Below, piece by piece: positions 4,963 through 36,528 of a stretch of DNA of 37,485 nucleotides (position 1 is its first letter; the number at the start of each line of letters is the position of its first letter). Location of the stretch: NCBI GenBank assembly GCA_019637115.1, contig JAHBWH010000072.1:1-37485 (forward strand), in the 5' to 3' direction. The stretch is from Myxococcales bacterium. GTDB taxonomy: Bacteria; Myxococcota_A; Polyangia; Polyangiales; Houyiibacteriaceae. The translations under genes were made by a program, and so were the position numbers. Below the pieces are notes generated by a model, which was not told the origin of the DNA, searched no databases, and was given only the letters and a program-made list of their open reading frames with translations.

Positions 4963-4971
4963 CCCGGCCCC

Positions 4972-5447
4972 GGACCTGGACCTGGACGGGGACCTGGACC
5001 CGGAGGCGGACTCGGAGGCGGACTCGGAGGCGGACTCGGAGGCGGAGGCGGAGGCGGACTCGGAGGCGGACTCGGAGGCGGACTCGGAGGCGGACTCGGA
5101 GGCGGACTCGGAGGCGGACTCGGAGGCGGACTCGGAGGCGGAGGCGGACTCGGAGGCGGACCCGACGGCCCCGGACGTGCACGTGGACGTGGACGTGGAC
5201 GTGGACGTGCACGCGCATGTGCAGGTGGACGTGGACGCGCACGTGGACGCGGACCTGGACGCGGACCTGGACGCGGACGTGGACGCGGACGTGGACGCGG
5301 ACGTGGACGCGGACCTGGACGCGGACCTGGACGCGGACCTGGACGCGGACCTGGACGCGGACCTGGACGCGGACCTGGACGCGGACCTGGACGCGGACCT
5401 GGACGCGGACCTGGACGCGGACGTGGACGCGGACCTGGACGCGGCCT
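4972..5447. repeat. Large hexanucleotide array (about 79 units)
   Basis: Continuous 6-bp periodicity. Plus-strand units are GGAGGC/GGACTC in the first part (about 5000-5165), GGACGT and GCACGT in the middle (5170-5250), then GGACGC/GGACCT to the end. Read on the minus strand every unit contains TCC. All three frames stay open on both strands, which creates spurious Ser-Ala-Ser-Glu, Asp-Ala, His-Val and Trp-Thr-Arg reading frames. It lies between the divergent DUF4350 gene and the 55-aa gene. Confidence 0.95.
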
Positions 5448-5492
5448 GTCCCTCGCTCTCGCCGCCCTCGCGTCGGGGCGGGCGCGTCGAAC

Positions 5493-10992: not shown

Positions 10993-11877
10993 ATGAGCCT
11001 TCGAGCCTTGCTCGTCGCCGTGTTGGTCCTCTCGGGCTGCGACGACGAAAGCGACGTGGTCGAGCAGCGAGTCGAGAACGTGAACCTCGGCGGGCGCGCG
11101 CCCGCCGCCGAGGCCGCGGCCCCATTGGAGCTTCCGGGCGTCGACCTGGCGTCCCTCGGCGGGGCCGATCGTCGGATGGCGAGCACGTTGCTGCGCGATC
11201 TGCTCTCGCCGTGCGGGGAGCCGATCTCGGTCGCGCGCTGCGTCTCGGAGGGCACGGCGTGCAATCGCTGCGTCCCGGCTGCGCGCTACGTCGTCAGGCT
11301 CGCGGCCGAGGGGCTCCCCGACCACGAGATCCGCACGCTCTACCGGAACCGATACGACCCCGCGGCGCAGAAGACGATCGACCTCGAGGGGGCGCCCGTC
11401 CGCGGCACCCCGATGGGCGCGAGCGTGACGCTCGTCGTCTTCAGCGACTTCGAGTGTCCGTATTGCCGGCTCGCCCATCCGCTGCTGATGCAGCTCCTGC
11501 GCGAGCACGAGGGCCGCGCGCGGCTCGCGTTCAAGCACTTCCCGCTCTCGATGCACGAGCGCGCGGTGCCCGCCGCGTTGGCCGCCGCCGCGGCGCAGAA
11601 CCAGGGCAAGTTCTGGGAGATGCACGACATCCTCTTCGAGCACCAGGACGCGCTCACCGACGCCGATCTCGAGCGCTACGCGCGGGAGATTGGCCTCGAT
11701 CTCGCGCGCTTTCGGGCCGACGTCACGGCCGAGGCCGCGCGTGAGCGGGTCGAGCGCGATCGCGCCGAGGGGCGCGAGCTCGGGGTGCAGGGGACACCGT
11801 CGATCTTCATCAACGGTCGCCGCTTCGAGGAGCCCTTCGAGAACCTCTCCGTGTTTCTGCGCGAGGAGCTGGACTGA
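10993..11877 (+). CDS. DsbA-like thioredoxin-fold lipoprotein
   Basis: The product is 294 aa. Its signal, MSLRALLVAVLVLSGC, ends in a lipobox. A linker is followed by a four-Cys region (SPCGEP...ARCVSEGTACNRC). The C-terminal half is a DsbA/thioredoxin-like domain: FSDFECPYCRLAHPLL with the redox CPYC, helical insertion (FWEMHDILFEHQDALTDADLERYA), and cis-Pro loop GTPSIFING. It likely forms or isomerises disulfides in the cell envelope; the extra Cys region may form a partner pair or a metal site. The next gene is a TlpA-like thioredoxin, suggesting a small thiol-redox cluster. An alternative ATG at 10981 would give an acidic n-region, unlike a signal peptide. Confidence 0.85.
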   Translation: MSLRALLVAVLVLSGCDDESDVVEQRVENVNLGGRAPAAEAAAPLELPGVDLASLGGADRRMASTLLRDLLSPCGEPISVARCVSEGTACNRCVPAARYVVRLAAEGLPDHEIRTLYRNRYDPAAQKTIDLEGAPVRGTPMGASVTLVVFSDFECPYCRLAHPLLMQLLREHEGRARLAFKHFPLSMHERAVPAALAAAAAQNQGKFWEMHDILFEHQDALTDADLERYAREIGLDLARFRADVTAEAARERVERDRAEGRELGVQGTPSIFINGRRFEEPFENLSVFLREELD

Positions 11878-12592: not shown

Positions 12593-12703
12593 GACGTTCC
12601 GCCACGGACGTTCTGTCACGGACGTTCTGCCACGGACGTTCCGCCACGGACGTTCCGCCACGGACGTTCCGCCACGGACGTTCCGCCACGGACGTTCTGC
12701 CAG
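12593..12703. repeat. 14-bp tandem array, about 8 copies
   Basis: The unit GCCACGGACGTTCC, with TT-CTG variants, is repeated head to tail between the convergent tlpA and GAF genes. I see no gene in 12491-12780; short frames there only translate the array. Confidence 0.9.
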
Positions 12704-16684: not shown

Positions 16685-16819
16685 CCGGCCCCGGTCGTCG
16701 GCCCCGGTCGCCGGTCGTCGGCCCCGGTCGTCGGCCCCGGTCGTCGGCCCCGGTCGTCGGCCCCGGTCGTCGGCCCCGGTCGTCGGCCCCGGTCGTCGGC
16801 CCCGGTCGTCGGCCCCGGT
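16685..16819. repeat. 13-bp tandem array, about 10 copies
   Basis: The unit CCCCGGTCGTCGG is repeated with one irregular copy at the left end. It starts right after the pdxA stop and ends about 75 bases before the next promoter. I see no gene in 16684-16983 besides this array and the promoter. Confidence 0.93.
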
Positions 16820-21278: not shown

Positions 21279-21450
21279 ATGGTCCCGCACGCAGCTCACT
21301 GGCGCGGGGTTGGGCCCAAGGTCGCGGCGGGGACGGTGCTCGGTCCCGTGAGCCCGTGGCGCTGCGCCGCAGAACGCCGTAGCGGCGACGCCCTCGTTGG
21401 GTCATCTTTCGCGCGACCGTCGCTCGGTGGGCGGCGAGATGGACGTGATC

Positions 21451-22170
21451 ATGGGCCTATTCGACTTCTTCGGCCGCAAATCCGGCAACGGTGGGCTGGC
21501 CAAGCACGCCGCACGCGCGGGCAACAAGCGCGCTCAGAACCCCGACCGCTGGCAGTCGCTTCGTGCGCTGGGCGAGATGAAGACGCCCGAGGCGGTCGAG
21601 GCGCTGCTCCAGCGCTTCACCTTCCGCATCGATCCGAGCATCACGGACCAGGAGGAGAAGGATCTCGCGATGGACGGGATCCTGCGGGCGGGCGAGGCGG
21701 CGATCGAGCCCGTGCGCGCGTTCTTGCGCGCCAACGAGAGCATCGCGTGGCCCGTGAAGATGCTGCAGGAGCTGGTCTCCCCCGAGGAGCTCGTCGGCGA
21801 TCTGTTGGGGCTGCTCGAGACGATGGGGACGGAGTACGAGCGGGACCCGCAGCGCAAGGTCGACACGATCATGCAGCTCGAGGAGCTCCGCGATCCGCGG
21901 ATCGTCCCGGCGGTGGCGCGCTTCTTCGACGACGCGAACGAGAGCGCGCGCTTCCACGCCGTGCAGACCGTGGTCGCACAGGACGAGGCCGACGACGCGA
22001 AGGAAGCGATGCTCGCGCTCTGCGCGCGGGAGGAGAGCGTCCGCGTGCGGGTCCGCATCTTCGACGCCGCCGCGACGCGCGAGTGGTCACTCGGCGACGA
22101 CCCGTCTCGCTTCGACTCACTCTTGCCACCTGGCTTCAAGCGTGAGGGCGAGAAGATCGTCAAGAAGTGA
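21451..22170 (+). CDS. HEAT-repeat protein
   Basis: A 239-aa all-helical protein beginning MGLFDFFGRKSGNGGLAKH, a common N-terminus of small cytosolic HEAT-repeat proteins. Successive helical pairs follow: RWQSLRALGEMKTPEAVEALL, DGILRAGEAAIEPVRAFL, MLQELVSPEELVGDLLGLL, IMQLEELRDPRIVPAVARFF, ESARFHAVQTVVAQ, and VRIFDAAATREWSLG. HEAT/PBS-lyase-type repeats here serve protein-protein contacts; no enzymatic residues are visible. The ATG at 21439 would add MDVI; I chose 21451 for the family-like N-terminus. It is separated from the sensor gene by a terminator-like hairpin. Confidence 0.82.
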   Translation: MGLFDFFGRKSGNGGLAKHAARAGNKRAQNPDRWQSLRALGEMKTPEAVEALLQRFTFRIDPSITDQEEKDLAMDGILRAGEAAIEPVRAFLRANESIAWPVKMLQELVSPEELVGDLLGLLETMGTEYERDPQRKVDTIMQLEELRDPRIVPAVARFFDDANESARFHAVQTVVAQDEADDAKEAMLALCAREESVRVRVRIFDAAATREWSLGDDPSRFDSLLPPGFKREGEKIVKK

Positions 22171-22501: not shown

Positions 22502-24556
22502 TCACTCCGCGAGGGCGGCGTCGATCTCGCGCTTGAAGGCCTCGAAGGGCTGCGCGCCCTGGAGGAGGCGACCGTTGATGAAGAAGCTCGGCGTGCCGAT
22601 GCGCGCGCCGGCGCGCTCGACGGCGGCCATGTCCTCGTCGACGGCGGCCTTGTGGCGCTCGCTGTCGAGGGCGGCGCGGAACTGGGCCATGTTCAGCCCG
22701 ATCTGCTCGGCGTAGCGCTCGAGATCGGCGCGCGCCATCGCGCGCTGGTTCTCGAAGAGCAGGTCGTGGTAGGCCCAGAACTTGTCGTTGCCGCCCTGGC
22801 GGAACGCCTCCATCGCGGCCTGCGAGGCGAGGTGCGCGTTCTGGTGGAAGGGCAGCGGGTAGTTGCGCCAGATGATCTGAACGCGGTTGCCGTACTCGTC
22901 CAAGATCTGGCGGAGCGTCGGGTTCACGCGCCCACAGAAGGGGCACTCGAAGTCGCTGAACTCCTGGATGACGACCCGCGCGCCGCGCGCCGCGCCCTTG
23001 GTCGGGGCGTTGCGGGGGACGGGGATCTCGTAGCGCTCGGGGGCCGGGGGCGCCGAGGGCTGCGCGGCCGGGGCCGCGGCGCCGGGGGCGTCGATGAACT
23101 GCGGCTCCGTGGCGCCCGACGCGATGATGGTCGCGTAGACGCGGTTGCGCGGGGTGCCGCGTTCGACGAGCGCGCGCGCCTTCGCGAGCTCCTCGTCGAC
23201 CATGGCCTTGAAGCGCTCGTAGGGCTGCGCGCCGCGGAGGTTGCGGCCGTTGATGAAGAAGCTCGGGGTGCCGGTCGCGCCGAAGCCACGGACCAGCTCC
23301 TGCTGCTGCTCGATCACGCGCGCGTGCGTGTTGTTGTCGAGCACGGAGCGGACACGCGCCATGTTCAGGCCGATCTCCTGGGCCCAACGCTCGAGGTTCT
23401 CCCGGGTCAGCTCACGCTGGTTCTCGAAGAGGATCTTGTGCAGGCGCCAGAACTTCTCGTTGCCGCCCTGCTCGAAGGCCTCGACGGCGAGCTGGTGCGC
23501 GGGACCCGCGTTGCGGTGGAAGGGCAGCGGGTTGTTGAGCCACACGACGCGGACGTCGCGCGGGTACTCCTCGAGGAGGCGGTCGATCGTCGGCTCGACG
23601 CGCGAGCAGAAGGGGCACTCGAAGTCGCTGACCTCGACGATGGTGACGAGCGCGTCGTTCGGGCCGCGCTGGGGGAGGGGGCCCGAGAGCTCGACCTTGT
23701 AGACCGCGTTCGGGTCGGGCTGCCGCTGCGGCTGCTGCGGGCGCTCGGGGGCGTCCGCCGCGGGCGCGGGCGAGGTGCGGCCGTCGCGGATGAGGTTCGC
23801 ATAGACCTGCGCCGCGGGGGTGCCGCGCTGCACCATGGCGCGCGCGGTGGCGAGCTCACGATCGATGACCTCCTTGAAGGCCTCGAAGGGCTGCGCGCCC
23901 ATGAGCTGCACGCCGTTGATGAAGAACGCCGGGGTGCCGCGGGCGCCGAGGCTGTTCGCGAGCGCCTGGTCGGCGTCGATCTTGTCCTTGTGCTCCTGGT
24001 TGTCGAGCGCCGCGCGGACCTGTTGCATGTTCAGGCCGGCCTGCTGCGCGTAGCGCTCGAGATCCTCGCGACCGAGGGCGCGCTGGTTCTCGAAGAGGAG
24101 GTCGTGCACCTGCCAGAACTTGTCGGCGCCGCCCTGCTCGAAGGCCTCCATCGCCAAGATGGCGGCCGGGGTGGCCTCCTGGTGGAAGGGGAGGGGGTTG
24201 TTGCGCCAGACGACGCGGACCTGGCCGCGGTACTCGTTCTGGATCCGCGAGAGCGTCGGGAGCACTCGGGCGCAGAAGGGGCACTGGAACTCCGACCACA
24301 CGACGATGCTCACGAGCGCGTCGGCCGGGCCCTTGCTCGGCTGGTCGGCCGTGATCGGCACGCGGTAGCGCACGACGTCGCCCGCGCCCTCGGCCGGCGC
24401 TGCGGCGCCAGCGGCCGAAGGCGCCGGGCCTCCGCGCCCGAGCTCGACGGCGGCGACCTCTTCGCCTCCGCCGTCCTTGCTGCCGGTGATCTGCCCGATG
24501 GCAAACCCTCCGACGAACGCGATCATGATCGCGATGATGGCTGATCCTCGACTCAT
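22502..24556 (-). CDS. Membrane-anchored triple DsbA-like thioredoxin protein
   Basis: The 684-aa product has one N-terminal membrane anchor (GSAIIAIMIAFVGGFAIGQI, residues 4-23) and three consecutive DsbA-type thioredoxin domains. Each keeps the redox CPFC (92-95, 314-317, 538-541), the helical insertion (AMEAFEQGGxDKFWxxHDLLFENQR-like), and the cis-Pro loop GTP-A/S-FFING (about 207, 429, 654). Spacing between CPFC motifs is 222 and 224 residues, so this is an internal triplication joined by Pro/Ala linkers. It should act outside the inner membrane as a disulfide oxidant, isomerase or reductase. No DsbB/DsbD partner is nearby. The ATG has AAGGAGA six bases upstream, preceded by a leader hairpin. 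Confidence 0.92.
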   Translation of the reverse strand: MSRGSAIIAIMIAFVGGFAIGQITGSKDGGGEEVAAVELGRGGPAPSAAGAAAPAEGAGDVVRYRVPITADQPSKGPADALVSIVVWSEFQCPFCARVLPTLSRIQNEYRGQVRVVWRNNPLPFHQEATPAAILAMEAFEQGGADKFWQVHDLLFENQRALGREDLERYAQQAGLNMQQVRAALDNQEHKDKIDADQALANSLGARGTPAFFINGVQLMGAQPFEAFKEVIDRELATARAMVQRGTPAAQVYANLIRDGRTSPAPAADAPERPQQPQRQPDPNAVYKVELSGPLPQRGPNDALVTIVEVSDFECPFCSRVEPTIDRLLEEYPRDVRVVWLNNPLPFHRNAGPAHQLAVEAFEQGGNEKFWRLHKILFENQRELTRENLERWAQEIGLNMARVRSVLDNNTHARVIEQQQELVRGFGATGTPSFFINGRNLRGAQPYERFKAMVDEELAKARALVERGTPRNRVYATIIASGATEPQFIDAPGAAAPAAQPSAPPAPERYEIPVPRNAPTKGAARGARVVIQEFSDFECPFCGRVNPTLRQILDEYGNRVQIIWRNYPLPFHQNAHLASQAAMEAFRQGGNDKFWAYHDLLFENQRAMARADLERYAEQIGLNMAQFRAALDSERHKAAVDEDMAAVERAGARIGTPSFFINGRLLQGAQPFEAFKREIDAALAE

Positions 24557-25497: not shown

Positions 25498-25756
25498 CGT
25501 GCCCTTGCCCGTGCCCGTGCCCTTGCCCGTGCCCGTGCCCGTGCCCGTGCCCGTGCCCGTGCCCGTGCCCGTGCCCGTGTCCGTGACCGTGCCCGTGCCC
25601 GTGCCCGTGCCCGTGTCCGTGACCGTGCCCTTGTCCGTGCCCTTGTCCGTGCCCTTGTCCGTGACCGTGCCCTTGTCCGTGACCCTGTCTGAGTCCGTAC
25701 CCGAGTCCGTACCCGAGTCCGTACCCGAGTCCGTGCGCGTGCCCGAGTCCGTGACG
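25498..25756. repeat. Hexamer array, CCCGTG / TCCGTG / CCCTTG family
   Basis: About 43 six-base units: mostly CCCGTG to about 25610, interspersed TCCGTG, ACCGTG and CCCTTG to about 25685, then a 12-bp GAGTCCGTACCC phase. It encodes spurious Pro-Val or Gly-His repeats in different frames. It lies just beyond the 3' end of dppB. The stretch 25297-25497 holds nothing I can support. Confidence 0.95.
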
Positions 25757-36331: not shown

Positions 36332-36528
36332 TGGACGCGGTCATCGGACGCGGTCATCGGACGCGGTCATCGGACGCGGCCATCGGACTCGGTCATCGGA
36401 CTCGGTCATCGGACGCGGTCATCGGACGCGGTCATCGGACGCGGCCATCGGACGCGGCCATCGGACGCGGCCATCGGACGCGGCCATCGGACGCGGCCAT
36501 CGGACTCGGTCGTTGGACGCGAGCGGCG
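36332..36528. repeat. 13-bp tandem array, about 15 copies
   Basis: The unit GGACGCGGTCATC varies as GGACGCGGCCATC and GGACTCGGTCATC. It lies between the two-TM gene and the prepilin peptidase gene. No gene is supported in 36285-36612; frames there translate only the array. Confidence 0.95.

Follow-up and report, generated by a model that had tools for sequence, protein, structure and literature searches.

A myxobacterial protein with three DsbA-type domains and three conserved active sites behind one probable membrane anchor

Why should a single protein chain carry three complete DsbA-type domains, each with an active site of its own? The question is raised by a gene of a Myxococcales bacterium (assembly GCA_019637115.1, contig JAHBWH010000072.1), which we analyzed within a stretch of DNA of 37,485 nucleotides, hereafter the window. 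The reading frame is open from its ATG, and the start agrees with that of the relatives (MSRGSAII... against MSKGSA...); the positions of its features are collected in Table 1. The preliminary description of this DNA had claimed three complete DsbA-like domains, each with a CPFC motif and a cis-Pro loop, and this claim is borne out by the translation, the Pfam matches and the motif positions. PF13462 matches three separate stretches of the protein with 246.7 bits (cut-off 23.2, E = 1.7e-73), as does PF01323 with 222.2 bits (cut-off 25.6, E = 6.7e-66). The CPFC motifs are spaced by 222 and 224 residues as described, the GTP of the cis-Pro loops starts at residues 207, 429 and 654, and the six cysteines of the protein all lie within the three CxxC motifs. 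Domains 1 and 2 are identical at 57.1% of 210 columns, domains 1 and 3 at 62.7% of 158 columns, and domains 2 and 3 at 55.3% of 159 columns. Since these comparisons reach E-values of 8.5e-88 to 1.6e-64, the triplicate domains are not a product of chance; the identities and the scores far above the cut-offs also rule out a low-complexity repeat.

Table 1. Features of the triple-DsbA gene and its product (positions in the window; aa, amino acid residues of the protein)
Feature	Position	Strand	Basis
Triple-DsbA gene, 684 aa, ATG to stop	22502..24556	-	Translation; Pfam PF13462 x3, PF01323 x3; NCBIfam NF041057
N-terminal hydrophobic helix, aa 4-23, probable membrane anchor	24488..24547	-	AlphaFold2; similar N-terminus in relatives
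DsbA domain 1 with helical tail, aa 61-256	23789..24376	-	Pfam, AlphaFold2, structural matches
Active site 1, CPFC, aa 92-95	24272..24283	-	Motif positions, alignment
Thr-Pro of cis-Pro loop 1, aa 208-209	23930..23935	-	Motif positions, alignment
Inter-domain helical motif GTPxxxVY after domain 1, aa 245-256	23789..23824	-	Sequence, AlphaFold2
DsbA domain 2 with helical tail, aa 285-478	23123..23704	-	Pfam, AlphaFold2, structural matches
Active site 2, CPFC, aa 314-317	23606..23617	-	Motif positions, alignment
Thr-Pro of cis-Pro loop 2, aa 430-431	23264..23269	-	Motif positions, alignment
DsbA domain 3, aa 507-684	22505..23038	-	Pfam, AlphaFold2, structural matches
Active site 3, CPFC, aa 538-541	22934..22945	-	Motif positions, alignment
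Thr-Pro of cis-Pro loop 3, aa 655-656	22589..22594	-	Motif positions, alignment

The predicted structure agrees with this division of the chain. The AlphaFold2 model, run on an alignment of 57 rows, has a mean pLDDT of 89.2 and consists of one N-terminal helix (residues 4-23) and three DsbA folds, with most 10-residue blocks above 90. The pLDDT falls below 50 only at residues 1-4, 16-58, 268-274 and 494-503, the second of these stretches being a disordered linker behind the N-terminal helix. This hydrophobic helix is the predicted membrane anchor. Because the pTM is 0.57, the model does not fix the arrangement of the domains relative to each other. Domain 1 closes with two helices (224-243 and 248-256) and domain 2 likewise (446-465 and 470-478). 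The second tail helix of both begins in the motif GTPxxxVY, which recurs after domain 2 (23123-23158) and is missing after domain 3, where the chain ends in a helix at 671-683 and the second tail helix is absent. The thioredoxin fold with its helical insertion is present, with Z-scores of up to 22.8. The closest solved structures are BdbD (3eu3, Z 22.8, 1.8 A, 173 residues), alpha-DsbA2 (6eez, Z 21.6, 2.6 A, 175 residues), ScsC (6mhh, Z 21.2, 2.0 A, 169 residues) and BcfH (7jve, Z 20.9, 1.9 A, 174 residues), differences of about 1 in Z counting as ties. BdbD is an oxidase. The nearest relatives in the fold search also include TsdA and DsbA of C. diphtheriae. Eukaryotic UGGT appears among the Foldseek matches as well (580-708 columns, rmsd near 20 A), at most a likeness of architecture.

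The preliminary description took the triple form to be unusual and proposed a search for two- and three-domain relatives. Scanning the species-genome collection with a pattern gave at least 575 confirmed stretches, of which we studied the best 80, ranked by likeness to the triple query. By title, 72 of these 80 loci belong to Myxococcota and two to Pseudomonadota, and six name no phylum. One of the two Pseudomonadota records, L045 ('Comamonas sp. KCTC 72670', 9 Mb), has triple-DsbA domains that fall among those of Myxococcaceae and Archangiaceae in the domain tree, and is probably mislabelled. The 80 loci hold 69 frames with three domains, 16 with two, seven with four and five with one, in a count that leaves out the loci of the own genome (L001-L009) and in which frames are split at UGA, so that some arrays are undercounted. 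Matches at E <= 1e-30, which do not by themselves imply the triple architecture, occur in 356 of the 377 genomes of the phylum. In the class sample, at least 11 of the 20 genomes have a frame with three or more PF13462 domains (G000, which is the own genome, G006, G076, G094, G258, G263, G298, G319, G362, G377 and G379). Array lengths among the relatives are two, three, four (L095, L096, L099 and L103), five (L123), seven (L097, in 1698 codons, with seven PF13462 stretches) and eight domains (L122, in 1735 codons of a frame from 1643 on the forward strand), and L104, which runs into a contig end, has five domains and a fragment of a sixth. At several loci, two or three multi-domain genes are neighbours. 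The closest relative, in genome G206 (76% identity), is a triple gene near frames with three and two further domains (L100). Among 11 matching plasmid records, one covers at least 80% of the query, at 32.8% identity. Tandem DsbA proteins are thus widespread in Myxococcota, and the window protein is an ordinary member; the triple form is routine in the phylum, and not unusual there.

That triple homologs might be routine and have a known function had been named as a ground for giving up the initial reading. The first part is what we found, and in the literature searched on tandem or myxobacterial DsbA no function of triple-DsbA proteins was found. Nor did the search, which covered neither subscription papers nor preprints, find a description of tandem, triple or myxobacterial DsbA proteins, also where it was directed at selenoproteins and ScsC. 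The wording 'triple DsbA' in two papers refers, in the text available, to a triple mutant and not to a triple-domain protein; by what is accessible of them, PMC1262709 concerns a mycobacterial kinase and PMC12992588 an unrelated annotation.

All three active sites are conserved. We aligned 57 proteins, the window protein and 56 relatives from the best 80 loci, leaving aside four-domain, two-domain, cut and odd loci (L078 and L081 among them). Site 1 reads CPFC in 53 proteins, CPYC in two, CPFS in one and CRFC in one; site 2 is CPFC in 53 and CPYC in four, and site 3 CPFC in 55 and CPYC in two. A CxxC motif is therefore kept in 56/57 proteins at site 1 and in 57/57 at sites 2 and 3, with the first cysteine invariant at all three, and Thr-Pro is found at all three cis-Pro loops in every protein. 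Among the 207 domains of the 69 three-domain frames, three lack a CxxC within the first 60 residues but retain the first cysteine. They belong to otherwise triple proteins, L059, L078 and L081, in each of which one domain has serine in place of the second cysteine (CPFS, CPFS and CRYS, respectively); these might be monothiol or trapping domains. With CxxC missing in only these three, degenerate spare domains are ruled out for the window protein and nearly all its relatives. The selection for three working centres that had been proposed from the window sequence is supported by these near-invariant sites and by the catalytic UGA codons of some relatives described below, and we consider it very probable that the protein is an oxidoreductase with three working centres.

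Four multi-domain relatives, drawn from three genomes, have 14 domains between them. In 11 of these, an in-frame UGA takes the exact place of the first catalytic cysteine, and no further in-frame UGA occurs within the 14 domains. Written with U for the UGA, the sites are UPFC, UPFC and UPYC in L094 and again in L105 (both G204), UPFC, UPFC and CPFC in L106 (G166), and UPFC, CGFC, UPYC, UPYC and CPFC in L123 (G385). The single-domain frames L120 (G046) and L121 (G099) have one catalytic UGA each. These relatives were picked up where searches reported internal stops, and do not represent a systematic count. SelB is present in all five genomes, and was not matched in the own genome (G000) or in G206, G057, G212 and G169. 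A clear tRNA-Sec (66.6-76.1 bits) was detected in G204, G385, G046 and G099, while the best match in G166, which is 91% complete, scores 48.3 bits and reads as tRNA-Ser; three matches of 47-49 bits in genomes other than the own one read as tRNA-Ser in ARAGORN. Selenocysteine in the own genome is rejected, with no SelB match and a best tRNA-Sec match that, at 41.8 bits, stays below the gathering score of 47.

For SECIS elements, we considered the ten UGA sites of the loci other than L123; the pattern used caught six of them, the misses being site 1 of L105, both sites of L106 and the site of L120. In the best hairpin at the six sites, a GTC or GGTC loop on a stem of 6-8 begins 22-23 nt from the U of the UGA. 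At eight cysteine sites the best stems are 4-6 (6 at four sites), and none has a loop of this kind. Shuffle values for single sites range from 0.03 to 0.36, and the argument is carried by the site pattern and SelB, the hairpins being weak singly. On these grounds selenocysteine as the nucleophile in two or three domains per chain is well supported and probably real. Its placement at the catalytic position of several domains in one chain argues strongly that every domain is catalytic: replacement domain by domain would be difficult to account for if the domains did not each turn over substrate. As far as the accessible text of PMC13188914 goes, most prokaryotic selenoprotein families have a single selenocysteine and a small subset two or three. 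The relatives with several UGA codons would be multi-selenocysteine thiol-disulfide enzymes in bacteria, and would imply that each centre matters.

The genomic surroundings reveal no partner of the triple-DsbA gene, which stands alone in the window. A HEAT-repeat protein gene (21397-22170, forward strand) lies downstream in convergent orientation. Genes of an oligopeptide-type ABC transporter lie upstream on the same strand as the triple-DsbA gene, beyond a repeat-rich stretch (25498-25753). In this stretch, which lies roughly 0.9 kb upstream of the triple-DsbA gene, a GC-rich unit of 12 bases is repeated about 21 times. Other short-unit arrays of the window are located at 4971-5448, 12593-12702, 16686-16819 and 36333-36521. 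The comparison of the window with the loci of the relatives yielded 232 clusters of neighbouring frames and no conserved operon partner among them; the one cluster that includes a window frame contains the frame antisense to the triple-DsbA gene itself. Among the 30 largest clusters, the top two consist of frames antisense to DsbA genes and many others represent Myxococcaceae synteny. One cluster, found in 27 loci some kilobases off, resembles a Ser/Thr kinase, and is absent at the window gene. A defence function was dropped after PADLOC gave no match for the gene.

The own genome (98.19% complete) encodes further thiol-disulfide proteins. The window contains a second DsbA-like protein (11416-11835, forward strand, in a frame ending at 11877), with a single domain, a CPYC motif, and a lipobox-like LSGC and four further cysteines ahead of the domain. 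A two-domain CPFC protein with PF13462 is encoded on contig C384. The only VKOR match belongs to a VKOR-DsbA fusion on C334 (L009, 2241-3608, forward strand), and DsbB was not found at E <= 0.001. Since the VKOR is already fused to a DsbA-type domain of its own, the genome has an oxidant with a dedicated partner. Two DsbD_TM proteins score above the cut-off for that domain, each with a C-terminal thioredoxin domain; as DsbD-like proteins they reach 261.1 and 102.1 bits, below the NCBIfam DsbD cut-off of 330. DsbD_TM matches lie on C32, C237 and C190, and none on the contig of the window (C405).

What would three working centres on one anchor do? Our tentative reading of the combined evidence is that the protein may be a membrane-tethered, multivalent disulfide foldase of the periplasm. 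Three DsbA-type domains, each catalytic by itself, would be flexibly tethered to an inner-membrane anchor, and the three neighbouring reactive dithiols would take hold of incorrect disulfides (or oxidised cysteines) of exported proteins and rearrange or reduce them, presumably in the isomerase or reductase direction and with electrons from a DsbD-like donor. The multimer would have arisen by gene duplication within one chain, with covalent proximity in place of a non-covalent trimer. We have lowered our confidence in this proposal because Thr-cis-Pro does not tell isomerase from oxidase. As a mark of isomerases it was dropped: it is present in the isomerase CcScsC, but, from what the sources show in part, apparently also in oxidase-type DsbA. 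The structure titles alpha-DsbA1 T172V and S. aureus DsbA T153V in the list of structural matches suggest Thr-cis-Pro there too, and both proteins are oxidases. Sequence and fold do not separate oxidase from isomerase.

Precedent bears on the direction of the reaction in both ways. According to the available part of PMC5524982, PmScsC without its trimerisation stalk loses isomerase activity and becomes an oxidase. In the accessible portion of PMC8900818, three close DsbA-like domains are suggested to contribute to the isomerase activity of trimeric alpha-DsbA2; CcScsC is given there as a trimeric isomerase and BcfH as both oxidase and isomerase. The precedents of PmScsC and alpha-DsbA2, the two DsbD_TM proteins and the VKOR already fused elsewhere would incline us, with reserve, towards the foldase direction. 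Against it stand the top Z-score of BdbD, the DsbD-like proteins below their cut-off, a domain geometry left loose by the model (pTM 0.57), the lack of a shared neighbour and a domain number that ranges from 2 to 8. Moreover, because PmScsC turns oxidase when its stalk is removed (PMC5524982, as far as its available text shows), separate domains strung like beads could be oxidases.

A high-capacity dithiol oxidase is the first alternative: three DsbA units per anchor would oxidise exported proteins and be reoxidised by VKOR. BdbD and the C. diphtheriae proteins TsdA and DsbA among the closest solved relatives are in line with such an oxidase, as is a genome with VKOR and without DsbB at the threshold used. 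Yet the only VKOR carries its own DsbA-type domain, and selenocysteine at the nucleophile in relatives would fit reduction at least as well; we regard this alternative as unlikely, though a serious one.

The history of the array bears on a second alternative, which is compatible with the oxidase: that unequal recombination merely raises dosage, producing arrays of 2 to 8 independent domains that do not cooperate. We built a tree of 87 domains from 29 of the 57 aligned proteins, whose bootstrap had not settled. Position labels change 13 times on it against a mean of 41.7 for shuffled labels; the three position groups need 9, 9 and 5 changes, and 28 of 84 inner branches are open. On a FastTree of 276 domains the labels change 24 times, compared with at least 85 in 100 shuffles. 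Each domain of the window protein groups with the same-position domain of relatives, and domains 1, 2 and 3 are most alike to their counterparts in L010 (74, 68 and 78%). A single starred group of 16 (99/99) unites the third domains of the window protein, its nearest relatives and Polyangiaceae, while first and second domains form no single group each. Seven sister-tip pairs on the FastTree come from the same protein, four with support above 0.9 (L061, L058, L027 and L063), and the arrays of L058, L061, L027, L063 and L070 look homogenised.

The position grouping and the homogenised arrays indicate an old three-domain form in which local exchange or re-duplication took place later; it predates the split of the nearest relatives of the window protein from Polyangiaceae. 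The domain-wise phylogeny proposed earlier to date the triplication thus recovers an old form with clustered position labels, but does not show a single clean triplication before the phylum diversified, given the 9, 9 and 5 changes, the unsettled bootstrap, the open inner branches and the homogenised arrays. The varied array length, the same-protein sister pairs and the adjoining multi-domain genes agree with dosage as the driving force. The retention of the three-domain form across distant families, the position grouping and the nearness of the window domains to their same-position counterparts in L010 speak against it, and we consider it, like the oxidase, unlikely as the main explanation, though a serious alternative.

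The preliminary description had also offered a relay of electrons; an ordered relay along the three domains would fit positions conserved as positions, but it is without support and very improbable because relatives have anywhere from 2 to 8 domains and the active-site motif is nearly identical at the three positions, with parts of the inter-domain linkers at pLDDT below 50.

We return to the membrane-tethered foldase. Its relatives could be viewed, provisionally, as a poly-DsbA class of Myxococcota with 2-8 domains per chain: covalent multivalent foldases that in some lineages would have selenocysteine at several (up to three) sites, each with a SECIS-like hairpin. With their varied length, the fused arrays would form a natural series for asking whether multivalency is enough by itself to make an isomerase out of a DsbA oxidase.

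Several known systems share parts of this architecture. The amphioxus selenoprotein P 3NSelP, by the accessible text of PMC3473315, has three repeated thioredoxin-like domains with selenocysteine and two further selenocysteines; its domain is that of animal SelP and not of the DsbA type, and the likeness would be convergent at most. BdbD of Bacillus and other single-domain DsbA oxidases have the same fold, but one domain only. The best NCBIfam model, NF041057 (Rcas_1661 family thioredoxin-like (seleno)lipoprotein; 275.9 bits against a cut-off of 190, summed over three stretches), describes one domain of 247 positions and is named for lipoproteins, whereas the window protein has three domains and, with its cysteines confined to the CxxC motifs, no lipobox cysteine. 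The available part of PMC13188914 lists this family as 'DsbG-like protein' with UxxC and one selenocysteine, compared with up to three per protein in the selenocysteine relatives described here.

Further parallels are the isomerases of the DsbA fold, which in the cited papers (including PMC5524982 and PMC8900818), as far as their accessible text goes, are assemblies of separate chains. The alpha-DsbA2 of Wolbachia and BcfH of Salmonella are described, in the portions available, as isomerases that bring three DsbA-like domains together; they do so as non-covalent homotrimers, the window protein as a single chain. ScsC of Proteus mirabilis and Caulobacter crescentus shares with the window protein the DsbA-type domain (Z 20.1-21.2) and the CxxC and Thr-cis-Pro motifs, which are not diagnostic of isomerases. 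It shares also, by the parts of the sources available, the principle of three catalytic domains cooperating on flexible connections. The scsC gene occupies a locus with scsB, whereas the contig of the window has no DsbD/ScsB-type gene. ScsC consists of separate chains trimerised by an N-terminal stalk; in the window protein the AlphaFold2 model has one hydrophobic helix followed by disorder in place of such a stalk, and the three domains are joined in one chain behind a probable anchor.
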